DNA from: Ruminococcus sp.
GTDB lineage: Bacteria > Bacillota > Clostridia > Oscillospirales > Ruminococcaceae
Length of the DNA stretch: 49,394 nt
Assembly (NCBI GenBank): GCA_017542125.1
Contig: JAFXXU010000029.1
Span: forward strand, 1-49,394
Direction of reading: 5' to 3'
Below are positions 4,769 to 22,946 of the stretch, piece by piece (positions within the stretch are counted from its first letter, which is position 1; each line of letters begins with the position of its first letter). Below the pieces are notes generated by a model that saw nothing but the letters and a program-made list of their open reading frames with translations, had not been told where the DNA came from and did no database searches. A program made the translations under genes and the position numbers.

Positions 4769-5350
4769 TCAGCGGTTTGTGACCACCTTGTCGATAAGCC
4801 CGTATCCCAGAGCCGAAGAGGCGGTGAGCCAGGTGTCGCGCTCGCAGTGTATGGAGATCGTCTCCAGGGACCTGCCGCAGTTTTCGGCCAGGATGCTGTA
4901 GAGCCTTTCCCGTATACTGAGGATATGCTCGGCAGCGATCTGCACATCGCTGGCCTGACCGTTTGCCGTACCGAGGGGCTGGTGTATCATGATCTCGGAA
5001 TTCGGCAGGGCAAAGCGTTTGCCCTTTGTGCCCCCCGCCAGCAAAAAGGCGCCCATGCTGGCCGCAACGCCGACACAGACAGTCGATACATCGCACTTGA
5101 TGTATCTCATGGTGTCGTAGATAGCCATACCTGCCGAAACGGAGCCGCCCTGGCTGTTGATGTAGATGCAGATGTCCTTGTCGGGCGCCTGCGCCTCGAG
5201 AAAGAGGAGCTGTGCCACCACGGAGCTTGCTGCTGCATCGTTGATCTCGCCTGAGATAAAGATCACCCTGTCTTTGAGCAGGCGGGAGTAGATGTCATAG
5301 GCGCGCTCGCCTCTTGAGGTGGTTTCAATAACTGTGGGGATAAGATTCAT
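4769..5350 (-). CDS. clpP: ATP-dependent Clp protease proteolytic subunit
   Basis: A 193-residue serine peptidase of normal ClpP length. The triad is visible as Ser98 (VAASMGA), His123 (MIHQP) and Asp172 (RDTWL), and the oxyanion GGS loop sits at residues 68-70. ClpP forms a cytosolic tetradecameric chamber fed by a AAA+ unfoldase. Here it lies between an LRR protein (19 bp) and a CbbX-type ATPase (49 bp), not next to clpX or tig. It is therefore probably an accessory paralogue dedicated to this operon and not the housekeeping enzyme. The start has a GGAAGTATCAC-type site upstream. Confidence 0.93.
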
Positions 5351-5369
5351 AGTGATACTTCCTTTCTTT

Positions 5370-6458
5370 TTAGTTATAGTAAATTGCGATCATGGGCTCG
5401 CCGATATCGCTGACGGCTCCGGGGAAGACGGATTTTGCGTTTTGGGGATAGCACAGTATCCGGTCAGGCTCAGCGTTTACAAGAGCCTTATCGACTATGG
5501 CTGTGATGCCGTCGGGAACGGCGATCTCCTTGTCCCTCCCGTTGTATTCCAGCAGCACCGTCCCGAGGATCACAAATCCGTCCCTGCGGTCTCTGTACCA
5601 TTTGGTCTGATAAAGGTCGGAGGCTTCAAGAAGGGTGAAATTGTCGGGGACGTTGATGACCGAGAGGTTAGTGCAGTCATCGAAGGCGCCAAGCTCGATA
5701 TCGCAGACGCTCTCGGGGATAGTCAGCTCCTCCAGCTTGGAGCAGCCCTTGAAGGCGTCTGCCGCTATCGTTTCCACCCCGTCGGGGATGACGAAATCGG
5801 TGGTCACAGTATCGTCGAAGCATTCCAGCCTGTTGTTGGAAATGACCGCGCAAACGCCGCCCTTATGCAGCATCTCATAGAGCCTGGCCTTCTTGGCGAG
5901 AGACTCTTTCAGCAGCTCGCAGCCGGAGAAGCACTCGTCGAACAACGCTTCGATATTTCTGGCCGGAGTCAGCTCTCTCAGGCTCGTGCAGCCGTTGAAC
6001 GCTCGGCTGCCAATCAGCTTGACGCTGTCGGGCAGGTCAACGGTCTCAAGGGAGGTGCAGCCGTTAAAAGCATCAATGCCCACCTTCTCGCAGCCGTTGA
6101 AGACCTTGACATATGTGAGTGAGGTGCATCCTCTGAAGGCTTCCTCGCCTATGGACTCGACCCCCGGGATGAGGACAGTCTCAAGGCTCGTGCAGCCCAT
6201 GAACGCCCTGGGAGGTATCTCCCCGAGGCTTTCGGGGAAGCTCACCGATCTGAGGGAGGTGCAGCCCATAAAGGCCTCGGCATCCAGACACCTGACCCCC
6301 TCGGGGATAGTGACCTTCTCGATGCACTTGTTGCCCTTGAAGGCGCCGACCCCGATCCTTACGGTGCCCCTGGGGATGACAACGCCGGTGTCCTTGCTCT
6401 CGTAAGAGCTGTAGACCGGGTCTGTGTTGATGATGTTGTCTGTCTTAGTCATAGTCAT
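5370..6458 (-). CDS. BspA-type leucine-rich repeat protein
   Basis: A 362-residue protein made mostly of LRR_5 (BspA/TpLRR) repeats of about 23 residues, each with an AFxGCTSLxxVxIP core. At least six are evident between residues 25 and 170 and more about 220-270. There is no signal peptide, sortase motif or membrane segment, so unlike many BspA proteins it should stay in the cytoplasm and act as a binding scaffold. It is first in the leftward operon, driven by the promoter at 6650-6678 after a leader of about 190 nt. As a repeat scaffold encoded with a protease and an ATPase it could recognise substrates, but that is inference. Confidence 0.85.
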
Positions 6459-8217: not shown

Positions 8218-8664
8218 TCATATATAATACATCGGTTCCCGGTTCTCGATATAGTTATCCTTGTAGGCTTTGGTGAGGTCGGCTAAGGAGAGCTGCCCGG
8301 TGAAATCACGCAGGTAGCCGTTGAGCTTCTCCCAGACGCAGACATTGACCGACTCCCGGATCTCGCTGCTCTCCTCACCTGCCGTATAGGTGTCGGCGAG
8401 GATGGAATTATCCAGGGCATTGAGTATCTCCGAGAGGAATATCCTGCTGGCGGGGCGTGAGAGCTGATAACCTCCCCGGGAGCCCTTCGTGCTGCGGACG
8501 AAGCCCCCCTGCCTCAGACCCAGGATTATCTGTTCCAGGTATTTCTGCGAGATGTTCTGCCTCTCGGCTATTCCTACGGAGGTGACGGTCCCGCCGTTTT
8601 CCGTATTGTATGCTATATCAGCGAGCACGACTACTCCGAGCTCGACTCTGGTGGGTATCTTCAT
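8218..8664 (-). CDS. Rrf2-family transcriptional regulator, CymR-like
   Basis: A 148-residue Rrf2 protein: winged helix at about 5-70 (ISQKYLEQIILGLRQGGFVRS then KGSRGGYQL, the wing) and a C-terminal dimerisation helix. IscR-type iron-sulfur regulators carry three cysteines after the wing; here only one is present (NVCVW), so it more likely resembles CymR, which senses cysteine status, often through O-acetylserine and a CysK partner. It is divergent from serine acetyltransferase, the enzyme making O-acetylserine. Boxes containing CCTAT or ATAGG occur in all three promoters of this region, including its own, where CCTATT overlaps the -35. It probably represses the sulfur locus and itself. Confidence 0.85.
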   Translation of the reverse strand: MKIPTRVELGVVVLADIAYNTENGGTVTSVGIAERQNISQKYLEQIILGLRQGGFVRSTKGSRGGYQLSRPASRIFLSEILNALDNSILADTYTAGEESSEIRESVNVCVWEKLNGYLRDFTGQLSLADLTKAYKDNYIENREPMYYI

Positions 8665-8714
8665 TTATACTTCTCCTTTCAGAAAGTAAACGGGGCGTTT
8701 TTGTTGTGATTATA

Positions 8715-8747
8715 ATTATACACTCTATCTCATAGTTTGTCAATAGG
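8715..8747 (-). promoter_or_regulatory. Promoter of the Rrf2 gene with half operator
   Basis: Minus strand: TTGACA (8738-8743), 17-bp spacer, TATAAT (8715-8720). The bases CCTAT immediately upstream run into the -35, matching one arm of the palindrome at 8832-8844, as expected for autorepression. Confidence 0.65.
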
Positions 8748-8799
8748 TTTTATATGTTTTAGTGAAATAAACTGTTAATAAAGAGTTTATATACTCTTA

Positions 8800-8844
8800 T
8801 TGATATCGTCGAATTTATATCGTATAATATACCTATTCGATAGG
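8800..8844 (+). promoter_or_regulatory. Promoter and probable Rrf2 operator of serine acetyltransferase
   Basis: TTGATA (8800-8805), 17-bp spacer, TATAAT (8823-8828), then the palindrome CCTAT-TCG-ATAGG (8832-8844) across the transcription start. The ATAGG arm begins 12 bases after the -10, the same distance as in the promoter at 9894. That operator position fits repression. Confidence 0.65.
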
Positions 8845-8887
8845 AAATATCTGTATAATAAGCATATAAATGTAAGGAGAGATAAAT

Positions 8888-9823
8888 ATGAACGCCCTGG
8901 AGGAAAGCATCAGCGGGATCGTCACCGACCTGCTTGACGGCAATGATACAGACGAGCCCGAAAGGATATTCAACCACCCCGATAAGGAGGTCATCATCGA
9001 TATCCTCACCAGCCTGCGGAAGATCGTGTTCCCGGGCTATTTCAAGAACGGCACCATAAAGGTCTTCACCCTGCGCAACAACCTTTCTATGCTGCTGGAG
9101 GACGTTATGTTCAAGCTCACCAAGCAGATCACCATTGTCCTCGGAGGTGACGAGAACGGCGAGGAGGAGATCGTCCGCACAGCCAGGGAGAAGTCTCTGT
9201 CATTCATTAAGCGCCTCAAGGTCATCCGCGAATATATCCTCACCGATGTGCAGGCAGCCTTTGACGGCGACCCCGCAGCATACAGCTCCGATGAGATAAT
9301 ATATTCATATCCCGGGCTGTTCGCCATACTGATAAACCGCATCGCCCACGAGCTTTTCCTGCTGGATGTGCCCATCATCCCCCGAATGATGACCGAGTAT
9401 GCCCACAGCGAGACCGGTATCGACATCCACCCCGGAGCCTCTATCGGCAAGTATTTCTTTATTGATCACGGCACCGGCATCGTAATAGGGGAGACCACCG
9501 TTATCGGCAATAACGTCAAGATATATCAGGGCGTTACCCTGGGAGCCCTCTCCACCAGAGGCGGTCAGGCGCTGAAAAGCAAGAAGCGCCATCCCACTAT
9601 CGAGGATAATGTTACTATCTATTCCGGAGCCTCGATCCTGGGCGGTGATACGGTCATCGGCAAGGATGTGGTCATCGGCGGAAACGCCTTTATCACCCGC
9701 TCAGTCCCCGACGGGGCTAAGGTGAGCGTGAAAAATCAGGAGCTCCGCTATAACTACGATGCCTCCCACCCCATCGAGCGCATTGATATCGACGAGGATA
9801 CCTCTTGGTTCTATACGATATAA
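8888..9823 (+). CDS. cysE: Serine O-acetyltransferase
   Basis: A 311-residue acetyltransferase of the long EpsC/SrpH kind. It transfers acetyl from acetyl-CoA to serine, giving O-acetylserine, the carbon acceptor for cysteine synthesis. Residues about 1-170 are the alpha-helical N-terminal domain. The left-handed beta-helix follows from about 175: HPGASIGKYFFIDHGTGIVIGE, then the family sequence IYQGVTLGA and KRHPTIEDNVTIYSGA. The hexapeptide turns and the catalytic His of HGTGIVIGE are intact. The start has AAGGAGA 8 bases upstream. SrpH-type acetyltransferases are known neighbours of SrpI encapsulins, and here the shell gene is two genes downstream, behind a second promoter. Confidence 0.93.
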   Translation: MNALEESISGIVTDLLDGNDTDEPERIFNHPDKEVIIDILTSLRKIVFPGYFKNGTIKVFTLRNNLSMLLEDVMFKLTKQITIVLGGDENGEEEIVRTAREKSLSFIKRLKVIREYILTDVQAAFDGDPAAYSSDEIIYSYPGLFAILINRIAHELFLLDVPIIPRMMTEYAHSETGIDIHPGASIGKYFFIDHGTGIVIGETTVIGNNVKIYQGVTLGALSTRGGQALKSKKRHPTIEDNVTIYSGASILGGDTVIGKDVVIGGNAFITRSVPDGAKVSVKNQELRYNYDASHPIERIDIDEDTSWFYTI

Positions 9824-9893
9824 ACTAAATGCTCACCTCTGCGCATACTTATGATGTGCAAAAGGGAAAATCATAAAAATCTTGTTCTGACTA

Positions 9894-9941
9894 TTGACAA
9901 CGGTAAACTGCTGTGCTATAATATAGTAAACCGATAGGAAT
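9894..9941 (+). promoter_or_regulatory. Promoter and probable Rrf2 operator of the sulfur-carrier/encapsulin operon
   Basis: TTGACA (9894-9899), 17-bp spacer, TATAAT (9917-9922), then CCGATAGGAAT (9931-9941) at the start site. ATAGG starts 12 bases after the -10, exactly as in the acetyltransferase promoter, implying shared control. Confidence 0.7.
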
Positions 9942-9979
9942 TGTATGTAATATGATCCCGACCGAAAGGAAGTATAGCT

Positions 9980-11437
9980 ATGGCAGTTACAGTGGTGATC
10001 CCCACAACGCTCAGGCTCTTTACCGAGCATAATTCCGAGGTGGAGCTTGAGGGGGGAACGGTAGGAGAGATCCTCAAGGTCCTGTCCGAGGAGTATCCTC
10101 AGACAAAAAAGGCGCTGTTCGATGAGAACGGTCAGCTGAGAGCCTTTATAAATGTGTTCGTAAACGACGAGAATATCCGCGACCTTAACGGCTTCGATTC
10201 CGAGGTCAGAGACAGAGACGAGGTGATCCTTATTCCGGCGATCGCAGGCGGATCCGGTCTCCCAAGTGTTCTGGGAGACACCAAGGGCGAAAAGCTCACC
10301 AATGAAGAGATCACCCGGTACAGCCGCCACCTGCTCCTGCAGGAGATAGGTGTCAAGGGGCAGAAGCTCCTGAAAGCCGCCAAGGTGCTCATAGTCGGAG
10401 CAGGCGGACTGGGTACGCCTCTGGTTCAGTATCTTGCTGCGGCTGGCGTGGGCACCCTGGGCATCATCGACAACGATGAGGTGGAGGAAAGCAACCTCCA
10501 GCGGCAGGTAATGCACGGCACCCGTGATATCGGCAGGCCGAAAGTTGCATCCGCCAAGGACAGCGTCAAGCAGATAAACCCGCTGGTGAAGGTCATCACC
10601 TACAATACCCGCCTCACCGCCGAAAATGCCGAGGAGATCATCTCCCAGTACGATGTGGTGGCTGATGCTTCCGATAACTACCCCACACGCTATCTTGTAA
10701 ACGATACCTGCGTGCTGCTGGGCAAGCCGGATGTTTTCGGAGCCATGTACCAGTTCGAGGGTCAGGTCTCCGTCTACTACGCCAAGGAGGGGCCCTGCTA
10801 CCGTTGTATGTACCCTGCGCCCCCTCCGGCGGGACTTGTTCCTTCCTGCGCTATGGGCGGTGTTGTGGGAGTGCTCCCGGGAGTTATCGGCACACTTCAA
10901 GCCAACGAGGTCATAAAGCTCATTGTGGGCGGGGGCAAGAACCTGATAGGCAGGGTAGTGACCTTTGATGCCTGGAACCTCAAATGGCGTGAGCTTAAGA
11001 TACGCAAGAGCGATGCCTGCCCTATCTGCGGAAAGCATCCCGCCATAACCGAGATCGAGGAATACGACTACGAGGATTTCTGCGGTCTCACTCAGCAGAA
11101 GGAAGAAGAGGAAAAGGTTGAGGGCATAGAGCCTAAGGAACTCAAGCGCCGCCTGGACGAGGGTGAAAAGGTAACGGTAGTCGATGTCCGCGAGCCCCAC
11201 GAAAGAGCCATCGCCAAGTTCCCGGAGGCGATAGTCATCCCCATAGGGCAGCTGGAGCGCCGCAAGAAGGAGCTTGACCCCACGGTGGATACCGTGTTCG
11301 TCTGCAAGGAGGGCAAGCGCAGCATCTTGGCTGTCAATACCTTGCGGGAGGCAGGCTATGAGGGTCCCCTCTACAACCTGAGAGGCGGCACCAACGCCTG
11401 GGCAGCCGAGGTGGATAAGAGCTTCCCGAAATACTGA
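9980..11437 (+). CDS. ThiS/MoaD-like, E1-like adenylyltransferase and rhodanese fusion
   Basis: A 485-residue three-part protein. Residues 1-94 form a ubiquitin-fold sulfur carrier of the ThiS/MoaD class ending in IPAIAGGSG. Residues about 110-355 are a MoeB/ThiF E1-like domain: nucleotide motif GAGGLG near 140, SNLQRQ, and zinc cysteines CYRC (273) and CPIC (347). Residues about 385-485 are a rhodanese domain with Cys442 in the active loop CKEGKRS. E1-like enzymes adenylate the carrier C-terminus and the rhodanese passes persulfide sulfur to make a thiocarboxylate. In the fusion the carrier's GG is internal, so it must be cut there to act, or it now has only a structural role. The JAMM protease of the operon is a candidate cutter. 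First gene of the second transcript. Confidence 0.88.
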   Translation: MAVTVVIPTTLRLFTEHNSEVELEGGTVGEILKVLSEEYPQTKKALFDENGQLRAFINVFVNDENIRDLNGFDSEVRDRDEVILIPAIAGGSGLPSVLGDTKGEKLTNEEITRYSRHLLLQEIGVKGQKLLKAAKVLIVGAGGLGTPLVQYLAAAGVGTLGIIDNDEVEESNLQRQVMHGTRDIGRPKVASAKDSVKQINPLVKVITYNTRLTAENAEEIISQYDVVADASDNYPTRYLVNDTCVLLGKPDVFGAMYQFEGQVSVYYAKEGPCYRCMYPAPPPAGLVPSCAMGGVVGVLPGVIGTLQANEVIKLIVGGGKNLIGRVVTFDAWNLKWRELKIRKSDACPICGKHPAITEIEEYDYEDFCGLTQQKEEEEKVEGIEPKELKRRLDEGEKVTVVDVREPHERAIAKFPEAIVIPIGQLERRKKELDPTVDTVFVCKEGKRSILAVNTLREAGYEGPLYNLRGGTNAWAAEVDKSFPKY

Positions 11438-11443
11438 TAATAG

Positions 11444-11466
11444 AAGAGGATGAGCTTCCTCTTTTA
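11444..11466 (+). terminator. Intercistronic hairpin before the encapsulin gene
   Basis: AAGAGGA (11444-11450) pairs with TCCTCTT (11457-11463), followed by TT ATT. The U tract is short, so it would attenuate and not fully stop transcription, or stabilise mRNA ends. It lies 7 bases after the fusion gene's stop. Confidence 0.5.
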
Positions 11467-11498
11467 TTGATAAATAATCTTTAACGGAGGAATTAAAA

Positions 11499-12452
11499 AT
11501 GGCAAAAGAAAACACTAACGACAAGATCGTAGCGCTGGGCAAAAAAGCCGCATATAACCTTGCGGACGTCAACAAGACCAGACCGCAGTACGGCGCACTC
11601 ACTCCCAAGTGGCTGACAAAGGTGCTTGAATTCAAGGGACTTGACTCCGGTATTTACAGGATCAACAAGGTAAAGGAGGGCGAGACCCCTCTGGATGTTC
11701 TCTGCTCTGTTGAGAAGAAGTCAGATATCATTCCACAGGGCTTCGTTCAGTATGAGGAGGAGCCCCGCGAGCTGCAGCTGGCATCCATCTCCACTATCAT
11801 CAATGTTGATACCGCTGTTGCAGACGTTTACGGCTCCCCCTACGATCAGGTAAAGGAGCAGCTGGATCTCGCCATCGAGAGCCTCCGCGAGCGTCAGGAG
11901 AGCCAGCTCATCAATAACGACGATTACGGCCTGCTGAAGAACGTTCCCGATTCTCAGCGCATCCAGACCAGGAACGGAGCTCCCACTCCCGACGATCTCG
12001 ACGAGCTGATCTCCAAGGTTTGGAAGGAGCCCTCATTCTTCCTGGCTCACCCCAGAGCTATCGCAGCCTTTGAGAGAGAATGCACCAAGAGAGGCGTTCC
12101 CCCCGTTACCACCAACATCGCAGGCGGCACCTTCATCGTATGGAGAGGCATCCCTATCATCCCTACCGACAAGCTGCTGGTGGACGGCCTCAAGAACCCC
12201 AAGAGCAAGAGCGGCAAGACCAATATCCTGCTTATCCGTACAGGTGAGGCAAAGAGAGGCGTTATCGGTCTGTTCCAACGCAATCTGAAGAACGAACAGT
12301 CCAGAGGTCTTTCTGTCCGCTTCAGAGGTATCGACGATAAGGGCGTAGCTTCCTATCTGCTTTCACTCTACTGCTCGGCTGCTATTCTTTCGGACGACGC
12401 TATCGCTGTTCTTGAGGATGTCGAGGTGGGTGAGTACTATGACTACGACTAA
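11499..12452 (+). CDS. srpI: Family 2A encapsulin shell protein (SrpI-type)
   Basis: A 317-residue protein with the HK97 phage-capsid fold as adapted in family 2 encapsulins. The N-terminal arm contains TPKWLTKVLEF and SGIYRINKV, matching the SrpI family's start of the shell domain. No cyclic-nucleotide-binding insertion is present, which places it in family 2A and not 2B. The C-terminal part (GVASYLLSLYCSAAIL and the acidic tail DVEVGEYYDYD) is typical of the family. Such subunits self-assemble into icosahedral protein compartments in the cytoplasm. Family 2A shells are known to enclose cysteine desulfurases, and one is encoded next with a 14-bp overlap. The ribosome binding site ACGGAGGAA is strong, as expected for a product needed in many copies. 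Confidence 0.92.
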   Translation: MAKENTNDKIVALGKKAAYNLADVNKTRPQYGALTPKWLTKVLEFKGLDSGIYRINKVKEGETPLDVLCSVEKKSDIIPQGFVQYEEEPRELQLASISTIINVDTAVADVYGSPYDQVKEQLDLAIESLRERQESQLINNDDYGLLKNVPDSQRIQTRNGAPTPDDLDELISKVWKEPSFFLAHPRAIAAFERECTKRGVPPVTTNIAGGTFIVWRGIPIIPTDKLLVDGLKNPKSKSGKTNILLIRTGEAKRGVIGLFQRNLKNEQSRGLSVRFRGIDDKGVASYLLSLYCSAAILSDDAIAVLEDVEVGEYYDYD

Positions 12453-14145
12453 TTACGGACTTCCCTCGGAATCGGAGCTGACAGCTCTTGCCAACTCCCT
12501 TTTTCCCGACCTCGATCCTCAGCGCTGTGCGGGTGGGATAGAGAAGCTCGTCACAAGCGGAGACACCTCCGTCATCGCTGACGCCGAGAAAAAGGCCGAG
12601 AGCTATTTCGGCGGCGCGAACTATGCATCCTCTGCGGAGCAGGCAGCAGCCTCCTACGGCAGCATATCGGAGTTTGAGAGCATAGCCAACGAGTATAACG
12701 GCGGAGCCTCGAATTACGAGAGCATTGCCGACGGCTACGGCGCTTCGCCCGTGATCGGCGCGGCAAAGCAGTACGCAGCCTACGATACATACACAGCTCC
12801 CCGGGAGCAGCCCGTCCAAGGCGGCTATTCGCCTGTTGTCCTTTCGCAGGGTCAGGCAGAGAGCTATGTCCCCAAGCAGGCACAGCCCGAGGTCAAAGAA
12901 GTCCCCACCGCAAAGAACGACAGCGGCATCATCGTCGGCACAAAGACCCTGGCTCAGATCCGCAGCGACTTCCCCATCCTCGGCGAGAAGATCAACGGCT
13001 ATGACCTTGTGTGGCTGGATAACGGCGCTACCACCCAGCGCCCCCAGGCGGTGATCGACAGGCTCAGCTACTACTACACCCACGAGAATTCCAACGTCCA
13101 CAGAGGTGCTCACGAGCTGGCGGCACGTTCCACCGACGCTTACGAGAATGCCCGTCAGATCACGGCGGATTTCATCGGTGCGCCCTCAAAGGACAACATC
13201 GTATTCGTAAGAGGCACCACCGAGGCGATCAACCTTGTGGCTCACGCTTACGTCAAGCCCCTGCTGCAGCCCGGCGACGAGATAATCATTACCATGCTGG
13301 AGCATCACGCAAATATCGTTCCCTGGCAGCTGGTATGTCAGGAGACGGGCGCTGTGATCAAGGTAGTCCCCGTTGATCAGACCGGTCAGATAATCATTTC
13401 CGAGTATGAGAAGCTGTTCTCAAAGAGGACTAAGTTCGTTTCGGCGACTCACGTTTCCAACGCTCTCGGAACAGTTACCCCTGTTGAGGAGATCGTGGCT
13501 ATCGCCCACGCCCACGGCGTAAGAACGCTGATCGACGGCGCACAGTCCATAGCGCACATCCCGATAAACGTATCCGCTCTCGACACCGACTTCTTCGTGT
13601 TCTCGGGGCATAAGATATTTGCTCCCACAGGCATCGGAGCCGTATACGGCAAGAGCGACGTCCTGGAAGCTGCAAGGCCCTATCACGGCGGCGGCAATAT
13701 GATCAAGGACGTTACCTTTGAGCGCACGATCTACAATCCGGCGCCAAATAAATTCGAGGCAGGCACAGGCAGCATCGCCGATGCGGTGGGTCTGGGCGCA
13801 GCACTTGAATACCTGAACTCCATCGGTATGCCTGAGGTCCACAGACATGAGCATGAGCTTCTCGTCTATGCGATGAAGGAGATGCGCAAGATCAACGGCC
13901 TCCACCTCATCGGTACGGCATCAAACAAGGCAAGCGTGCTCTCCTTTGTACTTGACGGTGTCAACAACGAAGCAGTAGGGCAGAGGCTCAACGAGCTGGG
14001 CATAGCAGTCCGCACCGGACATCACTGTGCACAGCCCATACTCCGCCACTTCGGCCTTGAGGGAACAGTCCGCCCCACGCTGGCGCTCTACAATTCCTAC
14101 AACGACATCGACAGGCTCGTACAGGGCATAAGAACACTTGCATGA
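12439..14145 (+). CDS. Cysteine desulfurase with N-terminal cargo leader
   Basis: A 568-residue PLP enzyme; the SufS-type core is about 405 residues, so about 160 are extra at the N-terminus. Start MTTTNYG is used (GAGGTG upstream), overlapping the shell gene by 14 bp. The leader is rich in Ala, Ser, Tyr and Gly, looks disordered, carries LTALANSLFPDL near its start, and has two related motifs, FESIANEY and YESIADGY, about 70-100. Such leaders direct desulfurases into family 2A encapsulins. In the core, Lys392 (SGHKIF) binds PLP and Cys530 (RTGHHCAQ) accepts sulfur. It converts cysteine to alanine and an enzyme persulfide, probably inside the shell. Confidence 0.93.
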   Translation: MTTTNYGLPSESELTALANSLFPDLDPQRCAGGIEKLVTSGDTSVIADAEKKAESYFGGANYASSAEQAAASYGSISEFESIANEYNGGASNYESIADGYGASPVIGAAKQYAAYDTYTAPREQPVQGGYSPVVLSQGQAESYVPKQAQPEVKEVPTAKNDSGIIVGTKTLAQIRSDFPILGEKINGYDLVWLDNGATTQRPQAVIDRLSYYYTHENSNVHRGAHELAARSTDAYENARQITADFIGAPSKDNIVFVRGTTEAINLVAHAYVKPLLQPGDEIIITMLEHHANIVPWQLVCQETGAVIKVVPVDQTGQIIISEYEKLFSKRTKFVSATHVSNALGTVTPVEEIVAIAHAHGVRTLIDGAQSIAHIPINVSALDTDFFVFSGHKIFAPTGIGAVYGKSDVLEAARPYHGGGNMIKDVTFERTIYNPAPNKFEAGTGSIADAVGLGAALEYLNSIGMPEVHRHEHELLVYAMKEMRKINGLHLIGTASNKASVLSFVLDGVNNEAVGQRLNELGIAVRTGHHCAQPILRHFGLEGTVRPTLALYNSYNDIDRLVQGIRTLA

Positions 14146-14153
14146 ACTATCAC

Positions 14154-14189
14154 AGTATACTCCCCGCCGAAAGGCGGGGCAGGTATACT
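14154..14189 (+). other. Strong intercistronic hairpin after the desulfurase gene
   Basis: Outer arms AGTATAC (14154-14160) and GTATACT (14183-14189) enclose CCCCGCC-GAAA-GGCGGGG (14162-14179), a GNRA-capped stem. Only two or three U follow, so it is more likely an mRNA processing or stability element than a full terminator. It separates the shell-cargo pair from the sulfhydrylase. Confidence 0.6.
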
Positions 14190-14225
14190 TTGATCTCGAC
14201 AATAACAGAATCGCGGTGACTTATT

Positions 14226-15458
14226 ATGAAATTCAATACCTCGCTGCTGCACACCGTCCGCCCGGAGGATCCCAACGGCTCAACGCTGCCGCCTGTCTAT
14301 CAGGCCAATGCCTTTCAGTACGAAAGCGCAGAGCAGCTTGAAAAGGTGTTCAACAACAAAGCAGCAGGCTTTTCCTACACAAGAGCCGGCAACCCCACGG
14401 TAGACGCACTTGAGCGCAGGATAGCCGCTCTGGAGGGCGGCATAGGCGCCGTCGCCTGCTCATCGGGAATGGCGGCAGTCACGGCGGCACTGATGAATAT
14501 ACTCCGTGCAGGGGATGAGGTCATCGTCAGCACAGGGCTCTTCGGCGGCACCATAGACCTCTTTGAGGATCTTGAAGCCTTCGGGATAATTCCCGTATTC
14601 CTTGAAAGTGTGACCTGTGAAGCTGTTGCAAAGGCAGTCACACCGAAAACCAGAGCTGTTTTCACCGAGCTTATCGGCAATCCCCGGCTGGATATCACCG
14701 ATATCGAAAGCGTTTCAAGGGCCTGTAAGGAAAAGGGCATCCCCCTGATAGTTGACAGCACCACCGCCACCCCCTATCTCATCAAGCCTCTCAAACACGG
14801 CGCCGATATCGTGATACACTCATCATCCAAGTATATAAACGGCAGCAGCAATTCCATAAGCGGAGTGATCGTTGACGGAGGACGCTTCAAGTGGAAAAGC
14901 GAGCGTTATCCCGGCTTCGCAGAGTATTCAAAGTTCGGGCCCTTCGCATTCCTCTCGAAGCTGCGAAACGGCATCTGGCGCAATATGGGCAGCTGCGTAT
15001 CACCCTTCAATGCATATATGAACATCATCGGCCTGGAGACCCTGGGGCTACGCATGGAGCGATGTTGTCACAACGCCAAGGCTCTCGCTGAATTCCTGGA
15101 AACGCAGGAGGGGGTAACGGTCAATTATCCCACCCTTGCTTCCTCGCCGTATAAGGAGCTTACAGAAAGGCTTCTCGGAGGCAGGGGAGGCGCGATACTC
15201 ACCCTCAGAGCCGGCAGCAGGGAGAGAGCCTATAAGCTGATAAACAGCCTGAAATATGCATCCATCGCCACCAATATCGGAGACGTCCGCACCCTGGTGA
15301 TCCACCCCGCAGGCACGATCTACACCCGCCACACCGACGAGCAGCGGGCAAGCGCCGGAGTCTATGACGACACCGTCCGCATAAGCGTGGGCATCGAGGA
15401 CACCGAGGATCTTATAGCGGATTTTGCACAGGCGATAGAGGCGCTCGATAAAGAATGA
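14226..15458 (+). CDS. metY: MetY-type O-acetylhomoserine/O-acetylserine sulfhydrylase
   Basis: A 410-residue PLP enzyme of the Cys/Met metabolism family. PLP-binding Lys lies in HSSSKYINGSSNS near residue 205, and FSYTRAGNPTVDALE near residue 55 is the family N-terminal motif. The region GPFAFLSKLRNGIWRNMG and SPFNAYMNIIGLETLGLR is characteristic of MetY and not of cystathionine gamma-synthase. It replaces an acetyl group with sulfur, from sulfide or from a carrier thiocarboxylate. Thiocarboxylate use is known for a MetY encoded with HcyS, HcyF and HcyD in Wolinella. Here the neighbours are a carrier, E1 and JAMM protease, the same set. Whether the acceptor is O-acetylserine or O-acetylhomoserine cannot be read; the acetyltransferase upstream favours O-acetylserine being available. 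Confidence 0.85.
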   Translation: MKFNTSLLHTVRPEDPNGSTLPPVYQANAFQYESAEQLEKVFNNKAAGFSYTRAGNPTVDALERRIAALEGGIGAVACSSGMAAVTAALMNILRAGDEVIVSTGLFGGTIDLFEDLEAFGIIPVFLESVTCEAVAKAVTPKTRAVFTELIGNPRLDITDIESVSRACKEKGIPLIVDSTTATPYLIKPLKHGADIVIHSSSKYINGSSNSISGVIVDGGRFKWKSERYPGFAEYSKFGPFAFLSKLRNGIWRNMGSCVSPFNAYMNIIGLETLGLRMERCCHNAKALAEFLETQEGVTVNYPTLASSPYKELTERLLGGRGGAILTLRAGSRERAYKLINSLKYASIATNIGDVRTLVIHPAGTIYTRHTDEQRASAGVYDDTVRISVGIEDTEDLIADFAQAIEALDKE

Positions 15459-15473
15459 AAGAAGGAGATCATA

Positions 15474-15719
15474 ATGGCAGATTTCAACATCACGGACAGC
15501 ATCGATATCACCGACGTCACCTGCCCGATCACATTCGTAAAGACCAAGATCGCTCTTGAGGAGCTGGACGACGGCGATATCCTCTCGGTCAAGCTCAACG
15601 ACGGCGAGCCTGTACAGAATGTTCCGAGAAGCGTCAAGGAGGAGGGGCATAAGGTACTGAGCCTCACCGATAACGGCGACGGCACCTTTGAGCTCATCAT
15701 CCGGAAAGTCGGTGACTGA
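15474..15719 (+). CDS. TusA-family sulfurtransferase
   Basis: An 81-residue protein with the TusA fold signature: DVTCPITFVKTKIALEEL with the single persulfide-carrying Cys17, then DDGDILSVKLNDGE and the PRSVKEEGHKV helix. TusA proteins accept sulfur from a desulfurase and pass it on. The usual CPxP is CPIT here, so the second proline is lost, as in several TusA paralogues. Good site GAAGGAGAT; 15 bp after the sulfhydrylase gene. Confidence 0.85.
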   Translation: MADFNITDSIDITDVTCPITFVKTKIALEELDDGDILSVKLNDGEPVQNVPRSVKEEGHKVLSLTDNGDGTFELIIRKVGD

Positions 15720-15720
15720 T

Positions 15721-16038
15721 ATGGCTGAGAGAGTAAGCGCAGAGGATTTCGAGAGCAAGGTGCTGGGTGCAGAGCTCCCCGTCCTGGCGGATTTCTATTC
15801 GGACAGCTGCATTCCCTGCAAGATGCTCTCGCCGCTGCTCAGTCAGCTGGAGAGTGAATATGCGGGAAAGATAAATATAGTCAAGATCAATGTCAATTTC
15901 GATGCGGAGCTGGCAGAGCGCTATGAAGTCCTCGCCGCCCCGACGCTGGTGCTTTTCAAGGACGGCAGCGAGGTAACGCGGCACAGAGGCACCGCATCAA
16001 AGGATCAGCTCAACGAGCTGATAAGTCAGGTCATTTAA
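15721..16038 (+). CDS. Thioredoxin-like protein
   Basis: A 105-residue single thioredoxin domain. Active-site CIPC at residues 30-33 (usual CGPC), with Trp before it replaced by Ser, and the cis-proline at AAPTLVLF. The start overlaps closely: TGA of the TusA gene ends one base before this ATG. It probably resolves persulfides or disulfides on the desulfurase, TusA or rhodanese. The altered active site suggests a partner-specific thioredoxin. Confidence 0.88.
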   Translation: MAERVSAEDFESKVLGAELPVLADFYSDSCIPCKMLSPLLSQLESEYAGKINIVKINVNFDAELAERYEVLAAPTLVLFKDGSEVTRHRGTASKDQLNELISQVI

Positions 16039-16052
16039 AGGAGAGTACAGCT

Positions 16053-16262
16053 ATGAAGATCACAGTAGCAGGAGAAAAGAAAGAGGTAGCCGAGGGGTTG
16101 ACCGTTGCACAGCTCGTCATCGACGAGAATGTGGAGATGCCCCAGTATGTCACCGTTACCGTCAACGACGATTTCGTTGAGAGCGACACCTTCGCTGAGA
16201 CCGTTCTTCACGACGGCGACAGCGTAGAGTTCCTTTACTTTATGGGCGGAGGTGCTGCGTAA
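16053..16262 (+). CDS. Free ThiS/HcyS-like sulfur carrier
   Basis: A 69-residue ubiquitin-fold carrier. The C-terminus is FMGGGAA: a diglycine followed by one or two extra residues. Carriers of the CysO/HcyS kind need such tails removed before the E1 can adenylate the glycine carboxylate, a job done by a JAMM protease, and one is encoded two genes later. The stop TAA overlaps the start of the E1 gene (TAATG). It probably carries sulfur as a thiocarboxylate to the MetY enzyme. Confidence 0.85.
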   Translation: MKITVAGEKKEVAEGLTVAQLVIDENVEMPQYVTVTVNDDFVESDTFAETVLHDGDSVEFLYFMGGGAA

Positions 16263-17074
16263 TGGCATTCACCAACGAACAGATAGAGCGCTATTCAAGG
16301 CATATCATCCTCAAAGAAGTGGGTGCAAAGGGTCAGAAGAAGCTGCTTGGCGGTAAGGTAATGATCATCGGCGCAGGCGGCCTCGGTGCACCTGCCGCTA
16401 TGTATCTGGCAGCAGCGGGCGTGGGCACCATTGGTATCGCCGATGCCGACGAGGTGGATCTTTCCAATCTGCAAAGACAGATCATCCACCAGACCGCTGA
16501 TGTGGGCAAGCCGAAAGTCCTCTCCGCAAAGGAGACTATGGAGGCCATGAACCCCGACGTCAAGGTAGTGACCTACCACGAGTTCATCACCAGCGCCAAT
16601 ATCCTTGATATCATCAAGGACTACGATTTCATCATTGACGGCACTGACAACTTTCCTGCCAAGTTCCTGATAAACGATGCCTGCGTAATGGCGGGCAAGC
16701 CCTTCTCACATGCGGGTATAATCCGTTTCCAGGGTCAGCTTATGACCTATGTCCCGGGACAGGGCCCCTGCTACCGCTGTGTATTCAAGGAGCCGCCCCC
16801 GAAGGATGCCGTCCCCACCTGCAAGCAGGCGGGAGTTATCGGCGCTATGGGCGGAGTGATCGGAAGCCTTCAGGCAATGGAGGCGGTCAAGTATCTACTG
16901 GGAGTCGGCGAGCTGCTGACCGGGTATCTGCTGACCTACGATGCGCTGAAAATGCAGTTCAGAAAGGTTAAGCTGCCCTCGGATACTCACAACTGTGCTG
17001 TCTGCGGCGACCATCCGACTATAACCAAGCTCATCGACTACGAGCAGGCGGAATGTGACGGTGTGGGACTATGA
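16262..17074 (+). CDS. MoeB/ThiF-type E1-like sulfur-carrier adenylyltransferase
   Basis: A 270-residue E1-like protein: GAGGLGAPAAMYLAAAGVG nucleotide loop, SNLQRQIIH, zinc cysteines in CYRCVF and CAVCGDHP, and a conserved cysteine in VPTCKQAGVIG. It has no rhodanese domain, unlike the fusion upstream, so it presumably serves the free carrier encoded just before it with an overlapping stop/start. A close paralogue lies at 22947-23780. Overlaps the JAMM gene by 4 bp. Confidence 0.92.
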   Translation: MAFTNEQIERYSRHIILKEVGAKGQKKLLGGKVMIIGAGGLGAPAAMYLAAAGVGTIGIADADEVDLSNLQRQIIHQTADVGKPKVLSAKETMEAMNPDVKVVTYHEFITSANILDIIKDYDFIIDGTDNFPAKFLINDACVMAGKPFSHAGIIRFQGQLMTYVPGQGPCYRCVFKEPPPKDAVPTCKQAGVIGAMGGVIGSLQAMEAVKYLLGVGELLTGYLLTYDALKMQFRKVKLPSDTHNCAVCGDHPTITKLIDYEQAECDGVGL

Positions 17075-17484
17075 TAAAGCTCAAAAAAAGCGACTATGAA
17101 AAGATAGTCGCCCACGCAAAGAAAGAAGCCCCCGTAGAGGCCTGCGGACTTATCGCCGGCGTGCTTGATGGCGAGGATAAGATCATAAAGAAGGTCTACA
17201 TCCTCACCAACACCGACCACGCCGAGGAGCATTTCACCCTCGACCCGAGAGAGCAGCTGAAAGCGGTAAAGGATATGCGTGCAGAGGGGTTCACCCCTCT
17301 CGGCAACTGGCATTCTCATCCGGTATCGCCCTCCCGCCCCTCGGATGAGGACAAGCGCCTTGCCTACGACAGCAGCGCAAGCTATATGATCCTGTCCCTT
17401 ATGGATGAGGAGCCAGTACTCAACTCCTTCCATATCGAGGGCGACAAGGCTGAAAAAGAACAGCTCGTCATCGCCGACGAGTGA
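17071..17484 (+). CDS. JAMM/MPN+ metalloprotease (Mec+/HcyD-like)
   Basis: A 137-residue JAMM domain with the complete zinc motif: Glu23 (VEACGL), His81 and His83 (HSHP), Ser91 and Asp94 (HxH-x7-S-x2-D). Bacterial members cut C-terminal to a diglycine in ubiquitin-fold sulfur carriers, either to mature the tail or to free cysteine/homocysteine from the carrier. Likely substrates are the GGGAA tail of the 69-residue carrier and perhaps the internal AGGSG of the fusion. Last gene of the operon, before a strong terminator. Confidence 0.92.
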   Translation: MIKLKKSDYEKIVAHAKKEAPVEACGLIAGVLDGEDKIIKKVYILTNTDHAEEHFTLDPREQLKAVKDMRAEGFTPLGNWHSHPVSPSRPSDEDKRLAYDSSASYMILSLMDEEPVLNSFHIEGDKAEKEQLVIADE

Positions 17485-17511
17485 GCATAAGGACTTTGTT
17501 TGATCCAAAAG

Positions 17512-17543
17512 CACCCGTATCGCAAATGATACGGGTGTTTTTT
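17512..17543 (+). terminator. Terminator of the sulfur operon
   Basis: A 10-bp stem, CACCCGTATC with GATACGGGTG, 6-base loop, followed by six T. The stretch 17485-17858 holds only this terminator, mobile repeat copy 3 and a leftward terminator. Confidence 0.93.
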
Positions 17544-17820: not shown

Positions 17821-17848
17821 AAAAAGGCTGCCCGGATGATCGGGCAGC
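17821..17848 (-). terminator. Terminator of the leftward small-gene cluster
   Basis: GCTGCCCG (17827-17834) pairs with CGGGCAGC (17841-17848); on the minus strand the stem is followed by CTTTTTG. It ends transcripts of the gene at 17859. Confidence 0.88.
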
Positions 17849-19142: not shown

Positions 19143-21608
19143 ATGAAAAATCCCTCTTTGTATGAAAATCACTCTTATGAAAGGATGTCTGATGCTATGC
19201 CAAGGACAAATTCCGTGAACCTGAATTTCTACAGCCTCTTTTTAAAAACAGACTTCACCGTCAGCAAGGTCACCAATTATAACACAGATGTCATTTTTGC
19301 GGAGCTGTTTGAAAGAGTTGACGACCCGAGCGTCCCCCTCCTTGAAGAGCACGACAGAAACCGGATAACCGGCTTCCGCAACGGTAAATACACCACCCGT
19401 GAGGAGCTTAACAAGAAAGAGAAGGACTTCCTTGACAGCCTTGAAAACTATCTTCTAACCCCCTCGGGGAACGTTGATCACGGGCATTTTCAGGTGCTGT
19501 TTGAAAGGCTCCGCAAAGGGCTGGAAGAATTCATCACTCAGACTGACAGCAGCCTGAGCAGCAATTGGTCCGAGCATGTGGATCGGTCGCTGTATGACGG
19601 CAGAAAAAAGCTGCTTGAACTGATATCCGAGCATCCCGCGCTGGAGCACGAGATCCGGAAGGTGTTTGAAAAAAACTCCGAGGATAAGAAGGGGAACAGG
19701 TTCGAGAAGGATTCCCCGAAGAAAGCCCTGCTCTGGCTAGTTGTATTCTCGCTGTTCCCACAGATCAGAGAAAACGTTCCCCACAGCAAGCAGGAAAAAA
19801 AGAGCGGCTGGAATACCGCTCTCAGCAATACCGCTATAACAGTTACCAGGCTTTATCAGGCTCTTGTTGCGCGGGACGATATGTTTAACCTGTTCAGCGA
19901 TACCCTGACCGACGGGCTCTATACCTCCGAGGCTATTGAGAACCGACTCTCCGACGAGACCGGCGGAAGGATCTGCAAAAGCACGGTGGATGAGCTGATC
20001 AGCGAGTATTACAGCAAGGGCAGGGCCCTCAGGCTGCCGGAGCTGCTGACTCTCAAGGAAAGGCACGGCAAGCCTAATCAGGTCCGTGTACTCTATGTAA
20101 GATGCATGATGATGCGGGCTTTTGAGCTTTACAGCAAGGGCGACAGCATAAGCTGCAGAGACGCCCAGGACCGATGCCGTATGATGCTCGACCTCTACGG
20201 GGATGATGAGGTCTCGGACCCCGTTCATTACGATCTTCTTAAGATCCTTCTTCTCCGTGCACTCTCCTGCTGGAGGCTGAAAGATCCGGCTGAGGAAGAG
20301 AAACAGCTCAAGCTGCTCCGCTCCAAGCTGATGAAACACAAGGAGTTCCCCTCCGAGTACAGGCTGCTTGCTCACTTTATGTTCAAACGGTTCGGCGGTC
20401 TGGCAAATACCGCACTTGATCTTGACAGAGCTGTAAGCAGCTATTCTGCGGCTTTTATGTTTGCAGCCCCCGACGATCACATAAACATCTCAACCGTGCG
20501 GAACAACCTTGCGATAGTATACAGAAAGTTTATGAAGCTCGACAGCGCCTGCTATGCCTATGAGCAGTCATATGAGCTGAAAAAGAACAGCTTCCCGGAG
20601 GATTCGGAGGTCACGGCACGCCACAAGACCAATTATTCCAACCCCCTCAGGCTCGGCAAGCTCTATGATAAAGCACTTGAACTCATAACCCCCGCATTTG
20701 AGGTGCGCAGCAGATTGTACGAAGAGGACCCCTCAAACGACAGCCGGATGAGGAGCTTGAATTATACCATACTGAGCTATGCGCTGATATACATATGTCA
20801 GGCAGAGGATAAGCTGTGCAGCGATGGCGTCGGAGCCGATCTGAGGGAGCTGCTTGCAAGGGCCGAGGACAGGCTGAAGGCTTTGCCCGAACACCTGCTC
20901 CGTCCGGAGAGGAGCAGCGTGAACCGATTGTCCTATATCAACCGCATCATTGTAAAAGGCAAGATAGAGTATCTGCGGTCGTTTTCGGATCCCGGCTTTT
21001 CCGACGACAGCCTCTTTGACTTCGATAAAGCCCGCGTTATGCTGGCTGACCCCGGCATAAGCGATAAAACTCAAAGGAGCCTTTACGGGCTCTGCGGGTT
21101 CGCCTGTGCAAAGGTGCGTCTCTTCCGTACCGGGAGAGATCTCGGCAGCACCCTTGAGGATGTATGTGACAACGTGCTGGAGGGCTGGAACAGCATAAGG
21201 ACAGTATATGAAAGCATTCACGACCGCAGCAGCTACGGTTATTATCAGGCAGCCGCCTGCTTCCATTTCGGAGCTCTGATCGACCTGCTTTCCGACCGCG
21301 GCGAGCAGGAGCTTCTCGACAGATGTCTCGAAGAGGTGAGGCTGTCTTTCAGGCAGGAGCTCACGGCAGCAGAAGCAGCCAAAAAGCTGCTTAGCGATGC
21401 TCTGGATATGCTCCGTGAATGCCAGCAGCCGGATCTCAGCCTCCCGGAAGAGAGCCTGGGCATCAGGTGGCACGAGATAAACTATAATGCATTCCACGGT
21501 CTGGAAATGATCGTGCAGCGCTTTGCCGAGCTCTGCGGCAGCGGCTCCGCCGGGAAGGAGAAGGCAGAGCTGTTTATGAAATATCCCCTTGACTTTTATC
21601 TGGCTTAG
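19143..21608 (+). CDS. Large TPR-containing protein of unknown function
   Basis: An 821-residue cytosolic protein. Residues 1-310 match nothing I recognise. From about 320 to 560 helical repeats of TPR type appear (for example STVRNNLAIVYRKFMKLDSACYAYEQSYELKK, then KALELITPAFEVRSRLYE). The last 250 residues are also helical. TPR arrays bind other proteins. The start is uncertain: the ATG at 19143 has a weak site, and MSDAM or MPRTN 14-18 codons later could be used (AAAGGA nearby). It is followed after 8 bp by a metallopeptidase and then an E1-like enzyme, so the TPR protein may present substrates to one of them. Confidence 0.75.
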   Translation: MKNPSLYENHSYERMSDAMPRTNSVNLNFYSLFLKTDFTVSKVTNYNTDVIFAELFERVDDPSVPLLEEHDRNRITGFRNGKYTTREELNKKEKDFLDSLENYLLTPSGNVDHGHFQVLFERLRKGLEEFITQTDSSLSSNWSEHVDRSLYDGRKKLLELISEHPALEHEIRKVFEKNSEDKKGNRFEKDSPKKALLWLVVFSLFPQIRENVPHSKQEKKSGWNTALSNTAITVTRLYQALVARDDMFNLFSDTLTDGLYTSEAIENRLSDETGGRICKSTVDELISEYYSKGRALRLPELLTLKERHGKPNQVRVLYVRCMMMRAFELYSKGDSISCRDAQDRCRMMLDLYGDDEVSDPVHYDLLKILLLRALSCWRLKDPAEEEKQLKLLRSKLMKHKEFPSEYRLLAHFMFKRFGGLANTALDLDRAVSSYSAAFMFAAPDDHINISTVRNNLAIVYRKFMKLDSACYAYEQSYELKKNSFPEDSEVTARHKTNYSNPLRLGKLYDKALELITPAFEVRSRLYEEDPSNDSRMRSLNYTILSYALIYICQAEDKLCSDGVGADLRELLARAEDRLKALPEHLLRPERSSVNRLSYINRIIVKGKIEYLRSFSDPGFSDDSLFDFDKARVMLADPGISDKTQRSLYGLCGFACAKVRLFRTGRDLGSTLEDVCDNVLEGWNSIRTVYESIHDRSSYGYYQAAACFHFGALIDLLSDRGEQELLDRCLEEVRLSFRQELTAAEAAKKLLSDALDMLRECQQPDLSLPEESLGIRWHEINYNAFHGLEMIVQRFAELCGSGSAGKEKAELFMKYPLDFYLA

Positions 21609-21616
21609 GAGGAACA

Positions 21617-22897
21617 ATGGTAAACGATCAGGAATACAACAGAATATTCGGGATCCTTAACGACACTCAGGTGGATGTCATAGAGCTTCTTAACGATACC
21701 GCCCCCGAGGCAAAGCAGGCTTTTATAAACGACCCCTTACTTGCGGTGCCTGCAAGCCGATACGACGGCCTTGACCCCTCGGTGCTGGAGCATAACATCG
21801 AAGCTTTGACAGAGCTCATGTCAGAGCTCCCCGGATCGGAAAGCACTATGGCGATGCTGATAAGGCTGATCACCGAGGACTCCCTTGCCCGCAACAGATT
21901 TGCCCTTGCGAACTATCGGTTCGATTCGGGGGATGCGTCGGCAGAGGCGGAGCACAGGCAGCTGAATGCAGAGATCTTCGGTATGCCCGAAAAGAACGTG
22001 TTTATGGATATCCTGTCATATCTGCTTGAAAGGATACATCAGAGCGATCCGGACACAGTTATGTATAATGAGCTGATAGGACTGCTCCCCGAGCTGCCCG
22101 GAGAAGGATGCAGGCTCTATACTCCTCCGAAGCAGCTGCTTGACGAGCTCCGCCGCGCAGCAGGGGAGTTCTATGAGCCTTTGCTGCGGCATATCCCCGA
22201 CAAAGAGACCTTCGGGATGGAGGAGATCGCCGGTATCGCTGAGGAGATACTCAGCAGCGAGTTGGGCGGCGCAGCCGGCAAATGGAGCATCGTTTACGAT
22301 CAGAACCGCTCCTATGCGTCGGTCAACCAGCTCGATCGCAGGATAATCTTCCCCGGCAGGCGCAATGTTCCTGTCTATACACGCGAAAAGCTCACGGCTC
22401 TGCTCGTCCATGAGGTGGGCGTGCATTTCCTGCGTGAGCTTGTGTTCGATGATATATCCCTCGGGCTGCTGCGTACAGGGCTCCCCGGCTATGAGGAGAT
22501 CGACGAAGGTATCGCCAAGGTAATGGAGCAGGCTGTGACAGGCAGATTTGAACACTCGGGGCTGTATCATTACATCAGCATCGGGCTGGCAGTATTCTAC
22601 GGCCTCGGCTTCCGCGAGATCTATGAGATACAGCGGCGGATCCTCTGCCTTATCGGAGCAGGAGCAGAGGGTATGGCTTATGACAGCGTGCGGAGAGCTC
22701 TCCGCGGGACAAACCGGCTCCCGAACTGCAAGGATCTGGTCTATTACAACGGGGCAGCCAAGATCTGGAGATATGTTTCCGAAAACATCGACAGCCCCTG
22801 CCTTTTTGACGATCTGCTGCTTTCCGGCAAGACCGACATCTTCGATCCCGACCACCGCAGGATAATATACCAGCTCAAGACCGGGCTTGTCCTTTGA
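21617..22897 (+). CDS. DUF1704-type zinc metallopeptidase (MATCAP-like fold family)
   Basis: A 426-residue protein. The zinc site reads His265-Glu266...His270 in LLVHEVGVHFLRE, with the downstream glutamate in YEEIDEGIAKVME (Glu297). This HEVGxHxLRE...EEGxA layout is that of DUF1704, whose animal members remove a C-terminal tyrosine from tubulin; bacterial substrates are unknown. The N-terminal 200 residues are helical and unrecognised. GGAGGAACA precedes the start, 8 bp after the TPR gene. Its operon partners are a TPR protein and an E1-like activator, so a peptidase acting on a carrier or conjugate is possible but unproven. Confidence 0.8.
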   Translation: MVNDQEYNRIFGILNDTQVDVIELLNDTAPEAKQAFINDPLLAVPASRYDGLDPSVLEHNIEALTELMSELPGSESTMAMLIRLITEDSLARNRFALANYRFDSGDASAEAEHRQLNAEIFGMPEKNVFMDILSYLLERIHQSDPDTVMYNELIGLLPELPGEGCRLYTPPKQLLDELRRAAGEFYEPLLRHIPDKETFGMEEIAGIAEEILSSELGGAAGKWSIVYDQNRSYASVNQLDRRIIFPGRRNVPVYTREKLTALLVHEVGVHFLRELVFDDISLGLLRTGLPGYEEIDEGIAKVMEQAVTGRFEHSGLYHYISIGLAVFYGLGFREIYEIQRRILCLIGAGAEGMAYDSVRRALRGTNRLPNCKDLVYYNGAAKIWRYVSENIDSPCLFDDLLLSGKTDIFDPDHRRIIYQLKTGLVL

Positions 22898-22946
22898 TAC
22901 CGGGTATAACTGCATCAAAGGTGAGCTATATAAGGAGAGTAAAGCT

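Follow-up and report, generated by a model that had tools for sequence, protein, structure and literature searches.

What becomes of the sulfur that a cysteine desulfurase releases inside an encapsulin shell? For SrpI shells, passages of PMC8049743 leave the fate of cysteine-derived sulfur open and note that learning it may reveal the role of the shell, and in part of PMC8346489 serine O-acetyltransferase (SAT) and rhodanese top the accessories enriched with desulfurase shells, and a rhodanese is put forward as dedicated acceptor. Here we describe a locus that bears on this question. It lies on a contig of 49,394 nucleotides (JAFXXU010000029.1, contig C29; the whole stretch is hereafter "the window") from a Ruminococcus sp. 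whose genome, 2.9 Mb and ~90% complete, is close to Ruminococcus flavefaciens, and it places the genes for a family 2A shell and its desulfurase in one operon with ubiquitin-like sulfur carriers, E1-like enzymes and a JAMM protease. We assign a probability of roughly 0.5 to the reading that sulfur set free from cysteine inside the shell goes to carriers matured by JAMM and serves the synthesis of homocysteine and, in relatives, of cysteine.

A previous model-made reading of the letters alone (the sequence-only reading) had named an encapsulin, a desulfurase, TusA, thioredoxin, a ThiS-E1-rhodanese fusion, a free carrier, a JAMM protease and SAT. Pfam and NCBIfam models backed every gene that it named, some below the equivalog cut-off (Table 1). 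The named MetY sulfhydrylase does belong to that family but is a divergent member, below the model cut-off, and the two E1-like enzymes are both in the operon but are joined by a third E1 gene at 22887-23780, 84% identical to the operon MoeB. The end given for the locus, 17543, did not hold: neither a gene end nor a plus-strand terminator was found there, the last gene ending at 17484 and a hairpin following at 17827-17848. From the fusion gene to the JAMM gene the genes are closely packed, with gaps of ≤80 bases and three pairs that abut or overlap; the desulfurase and shell genes share 14 bases, counted from the desulfurase ATG. The shell protein passes the family 2A model, falls below the cut-off of the 2B model, and has an SrpI-like domain as its only Pfam match, with no cyclic-nucleotide (cNMP) domain. 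Its nearest named relatives are encapsulins at 98% identity, from a Ruminococcus sp., and at 97%, from R. flavefaciens ATCC 19208.

Next, we asked how widely this arrangement is kept. The encapsulin alignment was scanned against species genomes, and neighbourhood counts rest on the best 80 of 555 relatives, a choice that favours close relatives (34 groups under single-linkage at 95% identity). Neighbours were counted as matches within ~10 kb of the shell, their kinds separated by identity to the window proteins. The fusion was found in 79 of the 80 loci and the desulfurase in 77, the misses (fusion, L077; desulfurase, L062, L064 and L085) lying at contig edges. In 79 loci the fusion precedes the shell gene, with a median of 109 bases between matches, and several gene orders surround this core of fusion, shell and desulfurase. 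Further neighbours were SAT (55 loci), MetY (49), a second, divergent JAMM (48), ThiS (47), MoeB (45), TusA (44), the window-type JAMM (43) and cysteine synthase (at least 15, a tally from strict clustering that mixes core-adjacent CysM-like genes with ordinary CysK, as in L029 and the outer copy of L035). ThiS, MoeB and JAMM occur as a set in 43 of the 80 loci; the MoeB of this set is 3' of the shell in 38, 5' in 6 and 5' on the opposite strand in 1. When only the 39 well-flanked loci (≥6 kb on each side of the shell) were considered, fusion and desulfurase were found in all 39, any JAMM in 36, SAT in 32 and the three-gene set in 26, joined by TusA and MetY in 24 and by SAT as well in 19.

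To examine the linkage in the reverse direction, 394 genomes were drawn from the order, and at most four candidates per genome were scored. An SrpI-like shell was present in 6 and the fusion in 5 (four of fusion length and one, G180, split into separate carrier and E1-rhodanese genes); all five adjoin a shell, and no fusion was found in the shell-less genomes within this scoring. Under independence the overlap has P ~8e-11, which is a guide only since the genomes are related. Another 25 genomes of the order gave an E1 match (E up to 1e-60) that covered E1 alone or E1 plus rhodanese, with no fusion. A one-genome accident is thus ruled out by conservation in the 80 loci together with linkage in the 394 genomes, and the union of shell and carrier genes noted from the letters proved real, conserved and linked both ways. 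We noted the core in records named Fibrobacter (L086), Ruminobacter (L091), Succinivibrionaceae (L051), Treponema (L096) and Selenomonas (L095). In the shell tree, the rows of L086, L091 and L096 lie among Lachnospiraceae, in a tree whose bootstrap had not settled; possibly the core has been transferred between phyla, or the bins are wrong. An SrpI-like family search gave no match in 14 control genomes, including a Synechococcus elongatus, with its plasmid perhaps outside the search; the S. elongatus shell gene is plasmid-borne, as stated in part of PMC8049743.

A cargo leader had been ascribed to the desulfurase, and comparison with relatives bears this out. Its motif, LTALANSLF, has as counterpart the 'LARLANEFFS' motif that passages of PMC8049743 report in SrpI-associated cargo desulfurases. 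Leaders were read in 88 loci, 76 of them among the 80, and a counterpart was seen in 64 of these 76, against a mean of 1.5 after shuffling. Beyond the 80 loci it was seen in 3 of 5 fusion-linked desulfurases and in 1 of 6 from loci free of carrier genes. The active-site motif is kept in 85 of the 88. The window desulfurase falls short of the cut-off of NF041166, aligning over profile positions 196-623 and leaving the leader part unaligned.

Both kinds of carrier seem to need trimming, given the tails of the free carriers and an invariant AGG that precedes a low-confidence linker in the fusion. Among 53 complete free ThiS proteins, 51 extend past MGG(G) by 1 to 11 residues, and the two tail-less ones are second copies in L023 and L095. 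(Here and in the motif counts we kept both L021 and L092, whose matching hits are otherwise taken as one record, and both L023 and L095, whose shell proteins are identical.) The window carrier, ending GGGAA, has the residues past GG expected of a carrier of the homocysteine (Hcy) type. A thiamine role for it is unlikely, another ThiS adjoining a ThiH-like gene on contig C84; that protein ends VGGG and has no tail. Across 32 aligned fusions the invariant positions of the ThiS part are confined to L11, Y39, F56 and A89-G90-G91, and AGG is present in 84 of 84 fused copies. The structure model of the fusion (predicted local distance difference test, pLDDT, 83) drops below 50 for residues 91-122. 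In L018 the fused-type carrier domain is a free protein, ending AIAGGCL and adjoining a JAMM gene. Since E1 enzymes of the ThiF/MoeB family act on a free C-terminus, as established for MoaD and ThiS, an internal AGG would need a cut, and JAMM proteases are natural candidates for cutting after it. Active-site motifs are intact throughout the rhodanese domains (C..G.RS, 85 of 85), the MoeB proteins (50 of 50) and the JAMM proteins (47 of 47 of the window type, 51 of 52 of the second type). The operon JAMM is the sole Prok-JAB match in the genome.

Which products might the carriers serve? Thiocarboxylates serve the synthesis of L-methionine and L-cysteine, according to part of PMC6225789. An arm consisting of MetY, TusA, thioredoxin, ThiS, MoeB and JAMM is complete in the window, and with it the Hcy-type set of carrier, E1, JAMM and MetY, the last below its model cut-off. 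The genome holds two full-length Cys/Met pyridoxal phosphate (PLP) family enzymes, the cluster MetY and an ordinary MetY above the cut-off on contig C75; no cystathionine route is apparent from them, though other enzyme families could supply one. A sulfite reductase domain was not found in this ~90% complete genome. As far as an incomplete genome can tell, the cell would have to transfer cysteine sulfur to methionine by some route, and the cluster could provide it.

The putative cysteine arm is seen in full in relatives. In L017, L018, L042, L047 and L049 a cysteine synthase gene comes first, followed by JAMM, fusion, shell, desulfurase and SAT; in L034 and L035 the synthase place is taken by two such genes. 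The JAMM-adjacent synthase scored higher with cysM than with cysK in all five scanned (L017, L018, L034, L035 and L047; 320 versus 281 bits in L017), none reaching the cysM cut-off. By comparison, the CysK of the window's genome, on contig C16, scores 367.5 bits, above the cysK cut-off of 350.95. SAT ends in an aromatic residue plus Ile in 59 of 62 proteins, an ending that resembles the tail that docks in cysteine synthase. In the window this arm is present except for its synthase: the operon has no cysteine synthase and hence no CysM-like gene of the CysO type.

Collectively, these observations suggest the following route. Judging from its family and leader motif, the desulfurase would enter the shell by its leader and take sulfur from cysteine. 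Sulfur would then exit in sulfane form, carried by TusA or by the rhodanese domain of the fusion, and thioredoxin would be the likely reductant at this step. JAMM is predicted to trim the free ThiS (GGG-AA) and to cut the fused ThiS after AGG, leaving free GG ends, which the E1 domains would adenylate on the way to thiocarboxylates; tails, intact motifs and known relatives point this way. MetY would take the thiocarboxylate of the free carrier to make homocysteine, and in relatives the fused carrier may feed cysteine, as the CysM-like enzyme and SAT suggest. That carriers take over sulfur from the shell and pass it on to homocysteine or cysteine is what we infer from these parts together. As a separate observation, seven loci (L020, L021, L029, L030, L032, L092 and L093) have a thioredoxin reductase-like gene 3' of JAMM, above the model cut-off in L030, and L049 has one after SAT, which suggests that the operon thioredoxin has its own reductase.

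Several observations weigh against this route. A desulfurase that consumes cysteine next to SAT and cysteine synthase, which make it, would run in a cycle if these activities were not kept apart in time or place. The free carrier set is missing from 13 of the 39 well-flanked loci, and three of these 39 (L068, L101 and L103) have no JAMM match within reach. Moreover, shell and desulfurase stand without carrier genes in six divergent family 2A loci from the same phylum, at 46-69% identity, two of them being short-flanked on one side; because these desulfurase-bearing loci show none, the shell can work without carriers. In the midpoint-rooted shell tree the six fall outside the 85 rows that contain the carrier-linked loci. 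Homocysteine may be made without the cluster, because the genome also has the ordinary second MetY and a MetA-type gene. A TtcA-like tRNA-thiolation gene occurs in 5 of 92 loci (L042, L049, L058, L072 and L091; 177 bits in L072, below the cut-off of 272). Lastly, S. elongatus knockouts of shell and desulfurase had no growth defect, as reported in part of PMC8049743.

Other arrangements of the same parts were weighed. We offer only tentatively the idea of a closed-cycle sulfur organelle, in which cysteine sulfur would be banked in the shell and two JAMM-matured carriers would be its dedicated exits, the shell-side fused one to cysteine and the other to homocysteine, the fusion being a self-activating pro-carrier cut after AGG. 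Rather doubtful, in our judgement, is a locus whose single regulator governs two sulfur modules that exchange no sulfur directly, the shell storing sulfur and the carrier set using free sulfide. Storage is the role stated for sulfur shells in part of PMC10960027, and shell-less carrier sets are described from many bacteria in passages of PMC1779556; the MoeB-like E1 genes in the 25 further genomes without a fusion fit as well. So does a sulfite reductase subunit C-like gene, possibly a second sulfur input, in 5 of 92 loci (L023, at 4853-5713, L036, L086, L094 and L095; three scanned, all below cut-off). Two separate modules are, however, hard to square with a fused carrier whose rhodanese is of the kind that takes sulfane sulfur and which precedes the shell gene in nearly every locus, and which was not found in the shell-less genomes sampled, at up to four scored candidates per genome.

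A different thio-product for the fused carrier, be it thiolated tRNA, a cofactor or a natural product, with the amino acid genes only co-regulated, is unlikely. The first-ranked structural match of the fusion model in the PDB is Uba4 (6yub, template-modelling score 0.44/0.50), which serves tRNA thiolation in eukaryotes, and the TtcA-like genes would suit such a role, but they lie kilobases away from the core, and SAT, MetY and cysteine synthase are far commoner neighbours (55, 49 and at least 15 of the 80 loci). Ubiquitin-like tagging, with carriers conjugated to shell or desulfurase and removed by JAMM, is very improbable: the model of UbaA, which activates SAMPs, picks up both E1s and the desampylase model the JAMM protein, but all below cut-offs, no E2 was recognised among 23 gene clusters of at least 5 loci (most unlabelled clusters being unscanned), and TusA, rhodanese and MetY point to sulfur transfer.

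SAT had been read as expressed from an adjacent promoter, and it indeed has a promoter-like site of its own (11 of 12 consensus bases); the scan that found it gave 15 sites in 10 kb against 7.7 expected. Directly after the -10-like boxes before SAT and before the fusion gene lie CGATAGGAAAT and CGATAGGAATT, two copies of an 11-base motif that differ at one base, which we regard as a weak candidate for an Rrf2 operator. With one mismatch permitted, CGATAGGAAWT has 3 matches against 1.4 expected, and among 14 loci inspected, the window included, it precedes SAT or the fusion only in the window, L028 and L031. The Rrf2 protein is probably not an IscR-type cluster protein, because it holds a single cysteine (by the ligand rule for such proteins). 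Probably the two transcripts would be set by this regulator according to cysteine status. Downstream of the operon, at 19143-23780, a weak-TPR protein, a peptidase-like protein (MATCAP/QEGLA models) and the third E1 form a three-gene set; with its carboxypeptidase-type protein next to an extra E1 copy, it may be a further set for trimming carriers or for tagging.

Table 1. Features of the window, with position, strand and supporting match
Feature	Position	Strand	Evidence
Rrf2-family transcription regulator	8218..8664	-	Pfam Rrf2 92 bits; IscR and CymR equivalog cut-offs not reached
Sigma-70-type promoter-like site before Rrf2	8715..8743	-	12/12 consensus bases
Promoter-like site before SAT	8800..8828	+	11/12 consensus bases
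Motif CGATAGGAAAT just 3' of -10-like box, possible operator (weak)	8838..8848	+	
Serine O-acetyltransferase-like (SAT), C-terminus FYTI	8888..9823	+	cysE 163.2 bits, below cut-off 210.65
Promoter-like site before fusion gene	9894..9922	+	12/12 consensus bases
Second motif copy CGATAGGAATT	9932..9942	+	
ThiS - E1 (ThiF/MoeB) - rhodanese fusion	9980..11437	+	Pfam/NCBIfam, structure model
Codons A89-G90-G91, end of fused ThiS domain; predicted JAMM cut after G91	10244..10252	+	
Family 2A encapsulin shell protein	11499..12452	+	NF041162 482.9 bits, cut-off 380
SufS-like cysteine desulfurase, N-terminal leader	12439..14145	+	NF041166 787 bits, cut-off 800
Desulfurase leader motif LTALANSLF	12478..12504	+	
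Divergent MetY-type sulfhydrylase family enzyme	14226..15458	+	TIGR01326 433.8 bits, below cut-off 495.1
TusA/SirA-like sulfurtransferase, motif CPIT	15474..15719	+	
Thioredoxin, CIPC	~15721..16038	+	
ThiS-like carrier, tail beyond glycines, ends FMGGGAA	16053..16262	+	
MoeB/ThiF-type E1 without rhodanese	16262..17074	+	
JAMM (Prok-JAB) metalloprotease, HSHP..S..D intact	17071..17484	+	
Terminator-like hairpin	17827..17848	+	

Both halves of the locus, shell with desulfurase and carrier with E1, JAMM and MetY, were known before. The Hcy-type thiocarboxylate pathway to homocysteine uses a tailed carrier, E1, JAMM and MetY, as here, and to our knowledge has neither a shell nor a dedicated desulfurase. 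CysO-Mec+-CysM of Mycobacterium tuberculosis, with carrier, JAMM, CysM and phosphoserine supply, is matched by the carrier, JAMM and CysM-like synthase of relatives such as L017; here, by contrast, the carrier is fused to E1-rhodanese, SAT stands in place of phosphoserine supply, and the window has no CysM-like gene. Benisch et al. 2024 reportedly described a sulfur-storing family 2A shell with a desulfurase, for which we know of no carrier machinery. As far as passages of PMC8049743 and PMC8346489 describe them, SrpI-CyD systems share the shell family, a leader-bearing SufS-like cargo and enriched SAT and rhodanese neighbours, but here the rhodanese is part of the ThiS-E1 fusion. Similarly, operon class 4e of Iyer et al. 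2006 combines ThiS, JAB, a rhodanese-less E1, SirA/TusA and O-acetylhomoserine sulfhydrylase (part of PMC1779556), and goes with sulfate/sulfite assimilation where the window set goes with an encapsulated desulfurase. The terms ThiF, JAB, ubiquitin, adenylyltransferase and MoeB do not occur in the main texts of PMC8049743 and PMC8346489, whose supplementary neighbour tables may hold ThiF rows. The sequence-only reading knew of no described system with all these parts; we likewise found no paper joining the halves in the literature searched, supplementary tables being outside its scope, but a dedicated rhodanese acceptor had already been suggested in part of PMC8346489. Among the details reported here, the tails on free carriers and the AGG inside the fusion are new, and neither these nor the third E1, nor the second JAMM and CysM-like genes of relatives, appear in the sequence-only reading.

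In a group of gut bacteria, then, shell-desulfurase genes beside ubiquitin-like sulfur carriers suggest a destination for shell sulfur, and the conserved operon offers a concrete, gene-level answer on the fate of sulfur from SrpI shells. That answer is testable, since cultured R. flavefaciens ATCC 19208 (L029) has every part, and it would connect protein nanocompartments with protein thiocarboxylates.

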